A stretch of DNA of 64,000 bases from Paenibacillus hexagrammi (GTDB taxonomy: Bacteria; Bacillota; Bacilli; Paenibacillales; NBRC-103111), in the NCBI RefSeq assembly GCF_021513275.1, contig NZ_CP090978.1, positions 4,402,001-4,466,000 of the forward strand. The letters are read 5' to 3'. A program made the translations under genes and the position numbers. Below, in pieces: positions 3,808 to 37,906 of this stretch. Within the stretch, counting starts at the first letter, position 1. Each line of letters begins with the position of its first letter. Under the pieces are notes generated by a model. It had not been told where the DNA came from. It was given only the letters and a program-made list of their open reading frames with translations, and did no database searches.

Positions 3808-5487
3808 CTACACGTTAATCCACGGTAGGTTCGGTTTTGGTTCTACTCTCTCCGTACGAAACTGCTGTTTATTTACAAAATTTTGTAATGGGGATTTGCT
3901 GGAGCTTCTCGCTTTCCTTGTACTGTTCGCTCCGCTCCTGGCTGCTTTCCCGCTCTTTTTATCTTCTCGAATATCAATTTCTATTGTTTCTTCCTTGTTC
4001 GTCTCTTCTGCGAGCTCGTGAGTCTGGACCTGTGGCATGTGCGCAGCTCCAGCTTCCTGAGCAGGCGGGTAATAAGGCATTTGGTATGGATATTGATGCG
4101 TCGCGCCATATGCCGGCATCATTCCAGGGGGATATGCCGCTCCATCGTGCGACATAGGGAAGCCAGCAGGCGGGAATGGACTTTGCGGCATGCCCATCGG
4201 CATCACAACTGGCGGATAATGAGTTACCATACCCGGCTGCTGACCTTGCCAAGGCTCCGCAGGTGTCATGTGTCCGCCACAACCACATCCTCCGTCGCTA
4301 AATGGAAATGCCCCTGCTGGCCCTTCTGCCGGAACACCTGACCACGGAGCCTCATCGTGCGGCATTTCCGGCCACGGCATTTGTCCTGCTGGGTTCCATG
4401 GCGTATGCAGCATGTCATCGGTCGACTTCACTTCTGCGCCTTCCCATGGCATCTGCTGCATGTGCGCTGCTTGCGTCATATCCGGCATTTCCGGCATCTG
4501 CTGCATATTCGGCATCTGTTGCATCTGCTGCATGTGAGGCATCTGTTGCATCTGTTGCATCTGCTGCATGTGCGGCATTTGCGGCATTTGGGGCATAGCC
4601 GGCATTTGCTGCGCCTGCTGCATGTGCGACATTTCCGCCCAGTCAGGCAGAGCACCAGCTTCAACAGGCTCTTCCGATTCAGGGTAAGCGATCACTTCTG
4701 TCGCTTTTATGTGGAAGCTTTTGAAAGGATGTACCGCTTGTGTATAGGGTTCACTTAGTCCGAATTCCATATCGGGCTGAGACTGGCTCTCCGCAACAGG
4801 AGGTGTTACATTCCAGTCCGGTGTTTGCTGATAAGGCGTATGATCCATCATCGGTGCTAAAGGCATCGTAGAAGGCTGCATTGGTGACATCGGCATCATA
4901 GGGTTTTGCATGGACATCGACGGCGTCATCGGCATCATAGGATTCTGCATGGACATCGACGGTGTCATCGGCATCATAGGGTTTTGCATGGGCATCGAAG
5001 GTGTCATCGGCATGGACGGAGGCATAATCGGTGCTGTTCCCATGCTTGGTGTCATCGGCACAGGACTCTCAGCTATCGGCATCTGCTCCACGGGCTGCTG
5101 CACGATGGGCTCTGTCGACGGCTTGGATGGAGACGGCTGCCCAGCCTCCCCTGCTCCCATTTTAGGGATGTACACGACCTCTCCGGTCATTAATACATTC
5201 GGGTTTTTCAATTGGGGATTCGCTTTAATCATTTCATGAAGCGGAATATCCCATGCCTTTCCAAGCTTCCATAAGCTATCCCCTTGCTGAACAACATGCT
5301 TATACGCGAAGTCAACAGGCGGCGCCATCGGCTTCGGCTTGGAAGGTATTTTCACTTTCATGCCGACATCAATGGCATTTGGGTCCGCGATCTGCGGATT
5401 CAGAGCGATGATTTCATCCAGCTCCACGTTATACTTTTTAGCAAGTTCGTACAGGGTATCGCCTTTTTTGACAATATGGATTTTCAA
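3808..5487 (-). CDS. safA: SafA-like LysM spore coat/cortex-interface protein, Met/Gln-rich
   Basis: SafA anchors the inner coat to the spore cortex through LysM. The 559-residue product has two N-terminal LysM modules (residues about 2-48 and 63-110, each opening with a VxxGDTL or VQQGDSL motif). A Pro/Met-rich region follows with a tandem repeat around SMSMQNPMMPMTP, then a Met/Gln tract of MQQM units, a GGCGCGGH cysteine cluster, and a basic tail. It starts with TTG, preceded by AAGGAGG at 8 nt. B. subtilis SafA has one LysM and sits close to ruv/bofC, which supports the name. The middle region evolves by repeat expansion. Confidence 0.8.
   Translation of the reverse strand: MKIHIVKKGDTLYELAKKYNVELDEIIALNPQIADPNAIDVGMKVKIPSKPKPMAPPVDFAYKHVVQQGDSLWKLGKAWDIPLHEMIKANPQLKNPNVLMTGEVVYIPKMGAGEAGQPSPSKPSTEPIVQQPVEQMPIAESPVPMTPSMGTAPIMPPSMPMTPSMPMQNPMMPMTPSMSMQNPMMPMTPSMSMQNPMMPMSPMQPSTMPLAPMMDHTPYQQTPDWNVTPPVAESQSQPDMEFGLSEPYTQAVHPFKSFHIKATEVIAYPESEEPVEAGALPDWAEMSHMQQAQQMPAMPQMPQMPHMQQMQQMQQMPHMQQMQQMPNMQQMPEMPDMTQAAHMQQMPWEGAEVKSTDDMLHTPWNPAGQMPWPEMPHDEAPWSGVPAEGPAGAFPFSDGGCGCGGHMTPAEPWQGQQPGMVTHYPPVVMPMGMPQSPFPPAGFPMSHDGAAYPPGMMPAYGATHQYPYQMPYYPPAQEAGAAHMPQVQTHELAEETNKEETIEIDIREDKKSGKAARSGANSTRKARSSSKSPLQNFVNKQQFRTERVEPKPNLPWINV
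4449..4640 (-). repeat. Short tandem repeats encoding MQQM/MPxM units
   Basis: Inside the safA-like gene, triplets CAT, CTG, TTG and CGG recur in 9-15 bp units. The encoded protein is almost only Met, Gln and Pro with a few His. The tract is prone to length variation. Confidence 0.85.
4888..5004 (-). repeat. 39-bp tandem repeat, three copies, in safA-like gene
   Basis: Three copies at 4888-4926, 4927-4965 and 4966-5004 differ at a few bases. Each encodes 13 residues of the SMSMQNPMMPMTP type. The unit is a multiple of three, so copy-number change keeps the frame. Confidence 0.85.
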
Positions 5488-16119: not shown

Positions 16120-16234
16120 TCCCTTACCTCCTCATGTCTCAGACTCGCCTTGTCCAGGTGACGGACGCCTTTAAAAAGCCTTACCCGTGCTTATACCCGA
16201 CTCGAGCGGTTACAGCATGCCTAAACAACACACT
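16120..16234 (-). ncRNA. L21 leader-type structured 5' untranslated region
   Basis: About 115 nt lie between the predicted transcription start and rplU. The segment contains GC-rich paired elements (for example GGCGTCC-GTCACCTGGACAAGGC) and a GTTTAGGCATGC stretch. Firmicute rplU genes often carry an autoregulatory L21 leader RNA here. Assignment is by position and general structure, not by covariance search. Confidence 0.5.
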
Positions 16235-32845: not shown

Positions 32846-35512
32846 TTATCCTTTTAATTCCGCTAAACGAGCTATCACTTTATCTCTCTTATCCGCATAA
32901 TCTGCTAGCTTCGCCTTCTCTTCCTCAATCACCTTGGCAGGCGCTTTGGCAACAAAGCCTTCGTTAGCGAGCTTTTTCTCAATTCGGGCTACTTCGCCAT
33001 GTAGAGTTTGCAGCTCCTTATCCAGTCTGGCCAGCTCCTGCGTGATGTCAATGAGACCTGCAAGCGGCAGATACAGCTCTGCGCCGGTTACGACAGCGGT
33101 CATAGCTTTCTCAGGAGCGGACAGCTCTGTGTCGATTTCCAGCAAGGATGTGTTGCAGAAGCGTCTCAAGTATTCTTCGTTGCTGCGTAAAATCGCTTGC
33201 GTCTCCGCACTAGCTGGTTTAACAAGCAGTTCGATTTTTTTGCTCATCGGCACATTCACTTCAGCACGAATATTACGCACGGAACGGATCGCATCCATGA
33301 GCAGTTCCATCTCACGAACCGCGTCAGGCGCCGCGAAGTCTGGGTTCTCTTTCGGCCATGGAGCAAGCGTAATCGTCTCGCCTTCATGAGGCAGATGCTG
33401 CCAAATTTCTTCACTAATGAATGGCATAAACGGATGGATCAGGCGCTGTGTTTGATCAAGCACATAGGCAAGAACGGACTGCGTCTTCTTCTTAGCTTCA
33501 GTATCCGTACCGTAGAGGCTCAGCTTGCTGAACTCGATATACCAGTCACACAGGTCATCCCAAATAAAGTTATACAGCAGGCGTCCCGTTTCCCCGAACT
33601 CATAGCTGTCGATCAAGCGAGTTACTTCGCGAACCGTCTCATTTAAGCGGTGCAAGATCCAACGATCTGCTGTACCCAATTTACCGGACAAATCAATATC
33701 GGCTGCTGTTACATCCGTCAAATTCATCAAAGCAAAGCGCGACGCATTCCAGATCTTATTGGCAAAATTCCTCGCCTGCTCTACGCGCTCCCAGCGGAAA
33801 CGCAAATCCTGCCCCGGCGTGCTGCTTGTAGAAATCATATATCTCATCGCATCTGCGCCGTATTTCTCAATGACTTCCAGCGGATCGACGCCGTTGCCGA
33901 GCGATTTGGACATTTTGCGTCCTTCAGAATCACGCACAAGACCGTGCATCAACACATCTTTAAACGGAATTTGCTCCGTAAACTCAAGCGCCGTGAAAAT
34001 CATTCGAGCAACCCAGAAATAGATGATGTCGTAGCCGGTAACCAGAACGTTCGTTGGGTAGAAACGCTGCAAGTCCGCTGTTTTTTCCGGCCAGCCGAGC
34101 GTCGAGAACGGCCACAAACCGGAGCTGAACCACGTATCTAGAACATCATTATCTTGATTAATATTCGCGCTTTGGCAGTGCGAGCACACTGCAGCATCTT
34201 CACGAGAAACCGTCACTTGACCGCAATCCGAGCAGTGCCATGCCGGAATTCGGTGTCCCCACCACAATTGACGGGAAATACACCAGTCGCGCACATTTTC
34301 GATCCAGTTCAAGTACGTTCTTTCAAAACGGTCCGGCACAAAGTTCACGCCTTTGCCGGATTTTTGTGCTTCGATCGCTTTGTCGGCAAGCGGCTGCATC
34401 TTCACAAACCACTGCGTGGACAGATATGGCTCGATAACCGCACCGCTGCGCTCACTGTGTCCGACTTGATGCACGTGCTCTTCGATTTTCAGAAGAACGC
34501 CCTGCTCCTTCAGGTCACTAACAAGCTTCTTACGGCAATCAAAACGGTCCAGCCCTTGGTATGGCCCTGCGTTGGCATTCATCGTGCCTGATTCGTCCAT
34601 GACAAGAACCTGCGGCAGATCGTGGCGCTTACCCACTTCAAAGTCGTTCGGATCATGAGCAGGCGTAATCTTCACCGCACCGGTCCCGAATTCTTTTTCT
34701 ACATACTCGTCGCCAATAATAGGAATTTCACGATTTACGACCGGAAGCAGCAGCATCTTACCGATGAGGTGCTTGTAACGCTCATCCTCCGGATGAACAG
34801 CAACCGCTGTATCACCGAGCATTGTTTCCGGACGCGTCGTAGCTACCACGATGGAGCCTGTGCCGTCCGTAGTTTTATATTCCAAATGATAGAGATTCCC
34901 TTGAACCTCTTTGTACTCCACTTCAATATCGGAGAGCGCCGTGCGTGCCGCCGGGTCCCAGTTAATAATGTAATTGCCGCGATAGATCAGGCCTTTTTCA
35001 TAGAGACTGACGAACACTTCGCGTACTGCTTTGGACAGCCCTTCGTCCAAAGTAAAACGCTCGCGTGAATAGTCAAGCGAGAAGCCCATTTTCGCCCATT
35101 GCTCGCGGATCGTGCCAGCATAATGCTCTTTCCACTCCCAGACTTTTTCCAGGAACTTCTCGCGCCCCAGGTCATAGCGAGACTGGCCTTCCTCGCGCAG
35201 CTTTTGCTCCACTTTAGTTTGGGTTGCAATCCCCGCGTGGTCCGAACCAGGCAGCCATAGCGTGTCATAGCCTTGCATCCGCTTCGTGCGGACCAGAATA
35301 TCCTGCAGCGTAAAATCCAGGGCATGCCCGATGTGCAGCATTCCTGTTACGTTAGGAGGAGGAATGACAATCGTGTACGGCTCCGCGTCAGGACGGTTGC
35401 CTGCTTTAAAGAACTCATTCTTGATCCAGTAGTCGTACCACTTGCGCTCCGCTTCCTTCGGGTCGTAGGTGGTAGGCATTTGTAATTGCTCTGCTTGATT
35501 CGTTTCGCTCAT
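32846..35512 (-). CDS. valS: Valyl-tRNA synthetase
   Basis: ValS charges tRNA-Val. The 888-residue class I enzyme has the HIGH-type signature [15 protein letters not shown] near residue 50, an editing domain, the KMSKSLGN motif and a C-terminal coiled coil. The ATG at 35512 has GGAGGT 6 nt upstream; nine earlier in-frame codons are excluded. Expression is governed by the T-box at 36079-36357. The leader between the T-box and this gene is unusually long and repeat-rich. Confidence 0.98.
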
Positions 35513-35582
35513 ATGTTTACCTCCGTGGTTTTGCAGCACGCCGCAAAACCTGTATTTTAATGTATTTGTTCTCCGCTTCTAC

Positions 35583-35762
35583 GAGCTTCATTCCCGTCAG
35601 GGAACGAGCTTGGCACTTATGAGCTTCGTTCCCTTCAGGGAACGAGCTTGGCACTTATGAGCTTCGTTCCCTTCAGGGAACGAGCTTGGCACTTATGAGC
35701 TTCGTTCCCTTCAGGGAACGGGCTTGGCACTTATGAGCTTCGTTCCCGTAGGGAACGGGCTC
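35583..35762. repeat. 38-bp tandem hairpin repeat in the valS leader
   Basis: Four complete 38-bp units start at 35583, 35621, 35659 and 35697, with a partial fifth at 35735. Each has an inverted repeat (GTTCCCT-TC-AGGGAAC, extended by AGCT arms) followed by a GGCACTTAT spacer. Units 2 and 3 are identical. The unit length is not a multiple of three and no credible protein is encoded. Confidence 0.92.
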
Positions 35763-35885
35763 CCACGTTTTCCGTAGGAAAACTTCCGCTTCCGGCTCTT
35801 GCGCTCTTTGCCCTTGCAAGCTTCGTTCCCGTAGGAACGGGCTCCCCTGTTTTCCGTAGGAAAACTTCCGCTTCCGGCTCTTGCG
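35737..35885. repeat. Larger direct repeat in the valS leader, two copies
   Basis: About 66 bp occur at 35737-35803 and again at 35820-35885 with few differences. Each copy contains two small hairpins, GTTCCCGTAGG(G)AAC and TTTTCCGTAGGAAAA, followed by a shared CTTCCGCTTCCGGCTCTTGCG end. Confidence 0.9.
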
Positions 35886-35899
35886 TCTAGCGTGCAAGC

Positions 35900-36060
35900 G
35901 TGTCCTGCGGAGGAAGTGTCCTTGGACACTCCTCCGCAGGACGAAAGCGCTCCTAGCAGCCGCTATTCACCAACAAGCACCTACCTATCCCCCTGCTCCA
36001 ATCGCTCGTGGTCCAGGGGGCGAAACCCCTGGGGCCCTCCTATTAGGAGGGTTTGGGAGG
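35900..36060. repeat. Further strong hairpins in the valS leader
   Basis: Three more stem-loops follow the tandem array: a stem of about 19 bp around GTCCTGCGGAGGA and its complement (35900-35942), CCAGGGG-GCGAAA-CCCCTGG (36013-36032), and CCCTCC-TATTA-GGAGGG (36035-36051). No protein-coding gene is supported between 35513 and 36452. Confidence 0.8.
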
Positions 36061-36078
36061 TGAAAATACAAATAAGCC

Positions 36079-36357
36079 TTTCGCCGCAAAGGACGAAAGG
36101 CTTGCTTCCGTGGTACCACCTTCATTCCATGTCACCTCGAAAAGCGTTACATGGCTCTCAAACAGATAACGGCTGTGGCCGGCAAACGCTGAAGACGCTG
36201 CGGCTGAAAGCCGTACGGTCCAATCACGTTCACAACTCCAGGGCGACTTCAATCGGCTGTTACCTATGGAACCTTTCAGCGCTGCAGTTCCACTCTCTGA
36301 AGGGCATACCGCTTACTACTCCCTTTCAACGTTTCCAATATTGCTCAAAATGATTTA
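36079..36357 (-). promoter_or_regulatory. T-box riboswitch (valine) upstream of valS
   Basis: On the minus strand the T-box core GGTGGTACCACGG (about 36107-36121) is followed by a terminator stem, AAGCCTTTCG with CGAAAGGCTT. Stem I elements are seen upstream: GGGAGTAGTAAGCGG, an AGAGAGTGG motif, and GAAGTCGCCCTGG. The GTC triplet at 36245-36247 is a valine codon in the expected specifier position. Uncharged tRNA-Val would favour antitermination. The terminator's T tract is interrupted (ATTTGTATTTT). Confidence 0.88.
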
Positions 36358-36363
36358 CACCAT

Positions 36364-36392
36364 ATGATAACGAACATTTTCAATAGAGTCAA
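36364..36392 (-). promoter_or_regulatory. Sigma-A promoter of the valS T-box transcript
   Basis: On the minus strand TTGACT (36387-36392) and TATCAT (36364-36369) have a 17-bp spacer. Transcription would start just before the T-box. Confidence 0.65.
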
Positions 36393-36452
36393 TATACACC
36401 GCGATAGTTGCCTATCTTTTCGTATTTTCCAGTATAACCGAATATTTGCTCT

Positions 36453-36860
36453 TTATGCTTCATCCGCGAAGATCATGGGGTCTTGAAGAAGCTTTTCATA
36501 ATATTCCGTCTTCACGTCGACGGCTGCAAGTAATGCCTCAAGCTCTTTTTGCTGCTGAAGCAGCTGTTTTTTATGATGGTCAAGCAGCTCAATACGCTCC
36601 TTCACAATTCTTGCAGGAATTTTGCCATTCTTGGCTCGCTCCACAAGACAGCCCTCCTGCAAAAACAGGATGATGTTCTCAAGGGTCATTCCTGTTTTCT
36701 TCAAAGACGCAACGAAGGTCAAGAAGCGCACATCCGCTTCAGTAAACTGCCGAACGCCGCTAGCAGAGCGAGAGACAGCAGGCAGCAACCCTAATTTTTC
36801 ATAATATCGGATCGTATGGGACGAGAGTCCCGTCAACTCCTCCACATCTCGTATAAACAT
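36453..36860 (-). CDS. MerR-family regulator, AdhR/NmlR type
   Basis: This 135-residue regulator has the N-terminal MerR winged helix (FIRDVEELTGLSSHTIRYYEKLGLLP pattern) and a coiled-coil dimerisation helix (about 80-115). A single cysteine lies in LQEGC, which might act in electrophile sensing as in AdhR-type members (inference). AGGAGG precedes the ATG at 36860. It is 15 bp after the alcohol dehydrogenase gene, whose promoter has the AdhR-type dyad, so it probably controls its own operon. Confidence 0.85.
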   Translation of the reverse strand: MFIRDVEELTGLSSHTIRYYEKLGLLPAVSRSASGVRQFTEADVRFLTFVASLKKTGMTLENIILFLQEGCLVERAKNGKIPARIVKERIELLDHHKKQLLQQQKELEALLAAVDVKTEYYEKLLQDPMIFADEA

Positions 36861-36875
36861 AGACAATACCTCCTT

Positions 36876-37906
36876 TTAGAAGGTTAAAATAATTTTGCCG
36901 ACGCTATCGTGGCTGTGCAAATAAACGTGGGCTTGTTCAATGTCCTCAAGCGAAAAGCATCGTGCAATCTGCGGGTGAATCTGTCCATCTGCAAGTAATT
37001 GAAACACAGCTTCCAAATCGGTCCTGAAAGCTTCCGGATCCTGCTGTTTGCCTCCGGTTATGCTGTAGGTCACAGCCTTGCGCTGAACCGCGCCGGATTC
37101 CACCGATCCATCTAGCGCCTTCCAGCCTTCCACGTATTTATGCGACTCTGCTTCTGACGCTTGCAAAATGGAGGTAAATCCGTAGCCGACCAGCACGCCA
37201 TCAGGCCCAAGAACTTGTAGCGAGCGTCCCCAATTTTCATAACCAATAGGATCAAATACTGCTTTAACGCCCTTCGGCACGTGCTCCCGCATATGTTCTA
37301 CAAAGTCCTCTTTATGATAATCGATGAGTCTGACCCCGTAACACTCCAACGCGGCATGTTTGCGCGAAGAAGCCGTGCCAAACATACGAAGCTCGAACAA
37401 TCTGCCCAAATCAAGCAAGGCTGTGCCAACACCGCCTGATGCGCCATGGATCAGGACAGTGTCTCCTGCGACCAAACTAGCGCATCGGCACAGCAGCTGA
37501 TAGGCCGTTACGTAATTCAGAATAACTGCGGCCGCATCAATAGCAGGAACCACCTCAGGCACAAGAATGACCTCTTCTACCGGCACACATACATACCGGC
37601 TGTATCCGCCTACGCCAGGAAAAAAGCTGCAGCTTTCGTGCCAAGCCCGATCCGCGGGTCTACCTGAATACCGATGGCATCTATGATTCCTACTATATCA
37701 TATCCCGGTGTAAATGGTGTGGAAGGCGAACCAGGGTATCGGCCTTCTCTCCTCATGGCATCAGCTAGTGCGACTCCAGCGGCTTGCACTTTGATGCGTA
37801 CCTCCCCTGCAAGGGGCTGTGGCATAGCTTCTTCGATCAGCTTCAACACACCCGGGCCTCCATACTGCGTGACGACTACTCTTTCATTCGATTGTTTATC
37901 TTTCAT
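36876..37906 (-). CDS. Zinc-type alcohol dehydrogenase / quinone oxidoreductase family, frameshifted
   Basis: This is a medium-chain dehydrogenase/reductase using NAD(P)H, probably in aldehyde or quinone detoxification. The N-terminal GroES-like part (to about residue 97) and the Rossmann part (HGASGGVGTALLDLGR) are both intact, but the frame breaks at the A6 run 37620-37625. One more base restores AAFFPGVGGYSRYVCVPVEE and a 343-residue protein. AAAGGAG lies 10 nt before the ATG. No structural zinc cysteine cluster is visible. Confidence 0.82.

Follow-up and report, generated by a model that had tools for sequence, protein, structure and literature searches.

The locus raises the question of why valS, a housekeeping gene, should carry a long run of hairpins between its T-box terminator and its start codon, and whether these form a regulatory device or a repeat that the leader tolerates. 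We address it in a 64,000-nt stretch of Paenibacillus hexagrammi DNA (the window; contig NZ_CP090978.1, positions 4,402,001 to 4,466,000), in which the T-box, the array and valS are all transcribed from the minus strand. The explanation we consider likely is that the valS leader holds one copy of a dispersed repeat behind the T-box terminator, that this element spreads as DNA and is tolerated here, and that its 3' hairpins have been multiplied locally.

Layout of the valS leader

The features of the leader, in the direction of transcription, are as follows:

36086..36338, minus strand: T-box leader (RF00230; E 1.1e-19, 95.5 bits, gathering score 93)
36074..36103, minus strand: T-box terminator stem-loop, then a T-rich tail
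35997..36063, minus strand: 5' module shared with the dispersed family (R1 model, 81.6 bits, a score that is not independent because this sequence is among the 20 that built R1; independent support comes from the BLAST matches)
36035..36060, minus strand: mirror repeat with complement, CCTCCC-AAA-CCCTCC-TAATA-GGAGGG, by sequence a potential intrastrand triplex motif
36013..36032, minus strand: conserved hairpin B, CCAGGGGTTTCGCCCCCTGG
35896..35951, minus strand: hairpin C unit, AGCGC-TTTC-GTCC ... GGAC-A-CGCTT (alignment, compensatory changes)
35849..35865, minus strand: hairpin D, first copy, 17 nt (stem search)
35824..35839, minus strand: hairpin E, first copy, ending the first D+E block (repeat and stem search)
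35767..35783, minus strand: hairpin D, second copy (repeat and stem search)
35583..35761, minus strand: 38-bp tandem array of five hairpin E units with an imperfect final one at 35588-35607 (Tandem Repeats Finder, stem search)
35527..35550, minus strand: stem-loop just 5' of the ribosome site (GGAGG, 35520-35524)
32846..35512, minus strand: valS, valine--tRNA ligase (TIGR00422, 1239 bits, cut-off 612)

The architecture described in the initial annotation is borne out by this layout, which also supplies the strand that the annotation leaves unnamed. Tandem Repeats Finder recovers the 38-bp array with a period of 38, 4.7 copies and 96% matches (score 316, 35583-35761), and a repeat search returns it as four 76-nt copies in register at a spacing of 38. 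The same search yields a second family of two 52-nt copies (96% alike, spacing 82), which corresponds to the duplicated 66-bp block of that annotation once one base of gap is allowed, with ~66 bp and two hairpins per copy. The ~560 nt from the end of the terminator stem (36074) to the valS ATG (35512), described as gene-free, contain no credible gene in the list of open reading frames. The estimate of about a dozen hairpins also holds, as the 553-nt leader has 11 exact stems (at least 6 bp, loops of 3-10 nt), to which hairpin C, with its bulge, and an array unit with imperfect pairing are to be added. The folding proposed as a check on this leader gives a minimum free energy of −258.3 kcal/mol. 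Its 100 dinucleotide shuffles average −190.4 (sd 7; z = −9.7), and none of them (0/100) is as low as the native sequence. A coding reading of the array was rejected since three does not divide its 38-bp period and since TTG or GTG begins the valS-strand open reading frames that cross it.

The T-box assignment applies to 36086-36338 only, where an RF00230 match above the gathering score is followed by a terminator and then by an aminoacyl-tRNA synthetase gene. Of 80 related valS loci, 69 have a T-box motif less than 1 kb away from the coding match; the distance there is 70-474 nt, as opposed to ~609 nt in the P. hexagrammi window. A consensus scan of 35480-36460 finds no internal promoter, and the sole promoter-like site (0.5 expected by chance) lies upstream of the T-box. 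The element would probably be cotranscribed with the rest of the valS leader, and only upon T-box antitermination.

Elsewhere in the window, a ribosomal protein L21 leader lies at 16131-16221 on the minus strand (RF00559, 42.1 bits), and a quinone-oxidoreductase-like gene at 36876-37906 (minus strand) reads as two adjacent open reading frames (37610-37906 and 36876-37586) in a frameshift-like arrangement. Tandem arrays at 4448-4632 and 4883-5013 have periods of 9/18/27 and 39, all multiples of three, and are possibly coding repeats.

Local expansion and the dispersed part

The leader repeats had been proposed to be a mobile or expanding family, and each description holds for a different part: expansion for the 38-bp array, dispersal for the leader stretch 5' of it. 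A search of the same and related genomes, suggested along with that proposal, separates the two. The interval 35583-35900 has no second copy in the 6.64-Mb genome (eight further matches span 15-23 nt, E at least 0.15) and the array unit is therefore attributed to local expansion, while the stretch from ~36064 to 35890 recurs and represents one copy of a structured repeat built from modules. When 35540-36070 is compared by BLAST with 30 genomes of the genus, its own genome gives, besides itself, a 66-nt match at 95%; among the relatives, congener G017 gives three matches and G021 one 30-nt match (E 0.001). The recurring copies start directly behind T-box terminators, that of alaS in the P. hexagrammi genome and those of valS, alaS and cysE in G017.

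The G017 valS and cysE copies each contain hairpin D once, plus E-like hairpins, which means that the array multiplies hairpins of the element's 3' end in this lineage. In the picture we propose, the conserved 5' module and hairpin C would make up the family part of the valS-leader copy, and local tandem duplication in this species, most simply through replication slippage at the hairpins, would have multiplied its 3'-terminal hairpins D and E to give the 38-bp array. Other tandem hairpin arrays of different sequence lie 3' of the element at loci L104 and L101, so the window is not alone in having expanded hairpins on that side.

An order-wide repeat family

The spread of the family was followed with a 28-nt core pattern and with R1, a covariance model of the 5' module built from 20 aligned copies (the valS copy included) with 68 positions and 14 pairs, in samples of one genome per species. 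With up to 3 mismatches the core pattern matches in 23 of 104 genomes of the taxonomic family, and a reversed control pattern in none. R1 at E 0.01 finds 43 of these 104 (10 of 22 genera) and, across the order, 237 of 392 sampled genomes (19 of 49 genera), where counts from searches over more than 40 genomes are lower bounds owing to stricter filters. At E 0.001 only 6 of 398 genomes from the phylum match, all six within the order; among the genomes listed, one genome of the order has no match. The order is one that we take to be Paenibacillales, from the named Paenibacillus and Cohnella relatives of valS. G044 has at least 130 R1 matches (from 150 scored candidates), and congener G016 has a weak match (E 0.0014).

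From 5' to 3' the element consists of a mirror repeat of pyrimidines centered on AAA, together with its purine complement, then a GC hairpin (either CCAGGGG..CCCCTGG or the GGCGC variant), then a stretch that varies and usually at least one hairpin C unit. By a loose pattern the C unit is absent in 2 of 42 G044 matches and 60 of 114 others, so that the 3' part is variable or diverged. Two-sided changes affect 6 of the 14 pairs in the 5' module, among 20 sequences, and 8 of the 12 in hairpin C, among 21. At G044 loci L213 and L215 an extra insert lies inside hairpin B, and the R1 match is 104 nt long instead of the usual ~67.

Among the 4227 models of Rfam the element itself has no match at the gathering score, nor at E up to 0.01 on 15 loci; the Rfam matches at element loci are T-boxes, apart from one P10 match (E 0.0049, below the gathering score). 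The accessible literature, mainly open-access papers and including PMC12306157 in the part available, yielded no description of the repeat family, which appears to be undescribed, although this does not prove its absence in print.

The mirror repeat and a possible triplex

The arms around AAA mirror each other over at least 5 nt in 116 of 134 distinct 45-mers and over at least 4 nt in 117. Arm length and T positions covary, as in CCTCCC|CCCTCC, CCCTCC|CCTCCC, CCCCTCCT|TCCTCCCC and CCCCT|TCCCC. A permutation test used the 118 parsable sequences among 126 distinct 40-mers. They contain 28 different arm pairs, including three in which AAA was read inside the hairpin loop. The mirror score of 5.14 out of 7 exceeds both the permuted mean of 4.17 and the maximum of 4.75 over 2000 shuffles, in which sequences are treated as unrelated, and the direct-repeat score of 4.93 is inside its own permuted range.

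A published rule for intrastrand triplex motifs asks for three blocks of 6-15 nt in triplex register with loops of 1-6 nt (PMC4666352, in the part available). Positions 36060-36035 agree with it (arms of 6, loops of 3 and 5), and the mirror repeat with its complement fits a potential intrastrand triplex motif by this sequence rule. Like the motifs described in the available portion of that paper (TM, and TMECO of E. coli), the element has two mirror-related arms and a complement of at least 6 nt with short loops; its C-rich strand fits their pyrimidine class and its complement the purine class, and inverted pairs and instability are likewise reported in that paper (PMC4666352). Unlike TMECO, a 37-nt motif described there as having no strand bias in E. 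coli, the element is longer, modular and, in G044, orientation-biased. The portion of PMC4666352 available describes a stable triplex for the E. coli motif in vitro, regards one in vivo as unsupported and reports increased local variability; the main text, to that extent, does not mention Paenibacillus.

Dispersal, orientation and mobility

In G044, 70 of 78 among the matches listed fit two strand zones, with breakpoints fitted to the same data, and dnaA at 6.86 Mb coincides with the gap at one breakpoint. At 34 of 40 fetched loci the element is oriented head-on to the replication fork, while 68 of the 88 genes that codon usage identifies there run with the fork. The gene 5' of the element is on the same strand in 17 cases and on the opposite strand in 23. 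Orientation in G044 follows replication rather than transcription. This independence from transcription argues against a general role in host transcripts; the mixed orientation of neighbors (17 vs. 23) likewise led us to reject a fixed 3'-UTR role, to which copies shortly after the stop codons of icd-like genes (a label from reading alone) had pointed.

At five of five alignable G044 loci the orthologous site in congener G045 lacks the element (six were searched; the flanks of L231 were unmatched), and the flanks are too diverged for a junction to be read. Taken together, the empty sites, the copy number and the replication-linked orientation argue for a dispersed element that spreads as DNA. 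Among the points against this explanation, the orientation bias comes from one genome, and neither a target-site duplication nor a terminal inverted repeat nor a mobilizing enzyme was identified. Carriage by plasmids or phages was rejected, as the plasmid and phage collections have no match to 35870-36064 at E 1e-3 and the viral contigs no exact match to the 25-nt core.

Whole elements also occur in tandem, with seven at L117 and more at L176-L178, and as facing inverted pairs (e.g., L159-L163). Those of L117 (1467-2700, in G094) are spaced by ~185 nt behind the end of an icd-like gene. Short 5' stubs are repeated upstream in 21 of 42 G044 matches and 16 of 108 others (by a loose pattern that includes some false cases), which suggests recurrent slippage at the hairpin boundary.

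The mirror arms, the mirror score beyond its permuted maximum, the head-on orientation of the G044 loci and the repeated stubs are what might be expected if the element were at bottom a replication-linked DNA structure, such as a candidate intrastrand triplex that stalls forks, with its position relative to genes incidental. We hold this to be possible, although rather doubtful: the triplex fold is predicted from sequence, the mirror statistics ignore relatedness, the bias is that of G044, and the available account of a published motif of the same type has no stable triplex in vivo (PMC4666352).

Movement as a REP-type element by a Y1 (RAYT) transposase would account for short palindromes, a high copy number and, in one genome, replication-linked orientation, and the element shares with REP/BIME sequences its character as dispersed palindromic intergenic repeats. 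Against this, PF01797 has no match (E 1e-5) in the genomes of P. hexagrammi, G017, G045, G092, G098 and G100, the last four of which hold 21 to 44 R1 matches, and it does match in genomes without R1 (e.g., G004, G006, G012 and G022). The presence of Y1 genes is uncorrelated with that of the repeat, which distinguishes the element from REP/BIME and RAYT systems; we therefore did not assign it to them and consider this route very improbable.

Association with T-box leaders

All elements of the P. hexagrammi genome (2 of 2) and of G017 (3 of 3) lie directly behind T-box terminators. Overall, at least 14 copies in ten genomes adjoin T-boxes (a minimum, as Rfam was run on a subset of loci), all 14 in sense, in leaders of valS, alaS, cysE, ileS and hisS. 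A motif scan of 156 R1 match rows (42 + 114, some from overlapping loci) places a T-box just 5' of the element at L139, L145, L186, L187, L193, L247, L248 (a partial R1 match, 31.8 bits) and L199. Rfam on 15 chosen loci adds L162, L163, L168, L172, L173 and L175, and gives T-box E-values of 6.4e-11 for L186, 3.1e-12 for L187 and 2.8e-18 for L199 (on the sense strand), with a further T-box at L011; a T-box scan of G047 confirms both of its cases.

The downstream genes are identified by NCBIfam as alaS at L187 and L247, cysE at L199, ileS at L248 and hisS at L193 (the last case combining this gene with the T-box motif). That of L168 is ileS over the cut-off, truncated by the locus edge; L172 and L175 hold ileS-like fragments below it, for which the MupA/MupB exception models rank top, far under their own cut-offs. 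The genes at L162, L163 and L173 were read as ileS by likeness, and the alaS of P. hexagrammi and the valS of G017 were named in the same way. Between the facing elements at L162 (1497-2384) and L163 (1571-2322), with T-box leaders of ileS type, lie tandem GC-rich units of another hairpin repeat.

Constant sense orientation and recurrence over several genes and genera leave room for co-option, in which the element would be a second, selected module acting after antitermination, its stacked hairpins stabilizing the readthrough mRNA or limiting ribosome access. The exclusive placement behind T-boxes in the P. hexagrammi genome and G017 is in line with this, as are the stems of hairpin C and the 5' module, kept by two-sided changes, although DNA-level processes can also preserve palindromes. 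At E 1e-5 the P. hexagrammi genome has 24 T-boxes, G017 27, G047 23 and G044 29; no R1 match lies beside 22 of the 24 and 24 of the 27 in the first two, most of the 13 R1 matches of G047 are away from T-boxes, and in G044 a T-box motif adjoins none of the 40 fetched loci. The element is also missing from most valS relatives, and we regard co-option as unlikely overall.

Tolerance of a repeat copy, the reading we prefer, does not on its own predict adjacency that is always in sense (14/14). It is plausible because an element behind the terminator spares the promoter, the T-box and the ribosome site, and the copy in the valS leader is probably tolerated. The leader 36338-36086 is itself a T-box (RF00230), whereas the element begins past the terminator, outside the Rfam model.

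By analogy, the element would work most like pneumococcal BOX elements, a likeness of architecture as described, with sequences not compared. Both have a fixed end module and a variable number of internal hairpin units, and BOX of S. pneumoniae and S. suis is, in the part of PMC3049150 available, likewise modular, interspersed, intergenic and present in many copies. The present element differs in belonging to another bacterial order, in starting with a mirror-repeat hairpin and in having no recognized 3' module like boxC (PMC3049150, same part). In the pneumococcal trp leader, BOX separates two T-boxes and is cotranscribed with both, which the authors conclude still function as switches (PMC3049150, as far as available); our element instead sits behind the terminator.

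Implications

In its most far-reaching form, which we put forward as speculative and improbable as a whole, the account would be of an undescribed, order-wide composite family with a triplex-motif head, inserting in an orientation that depends on replication and repeatedly docking in sense directly behind T-box terminators, with some copies, such as that of valS, serving as a second control module of aminoacyl-tRNA synthetase genes. The finding brings together palindromic repeats scattered through genomes, intrastrand triplex motifs and T-box leaders, which are usually separate fields. If docking behind T-boxes is targeted or selected, the leaders of valS, alaS, cysE, ileS and hisS in several genera would offer natural replicates for the effect of such an element on riboswitch output, and a copy-rich genome with a congener that is empty at the compared sites makes the route of spreading testable.
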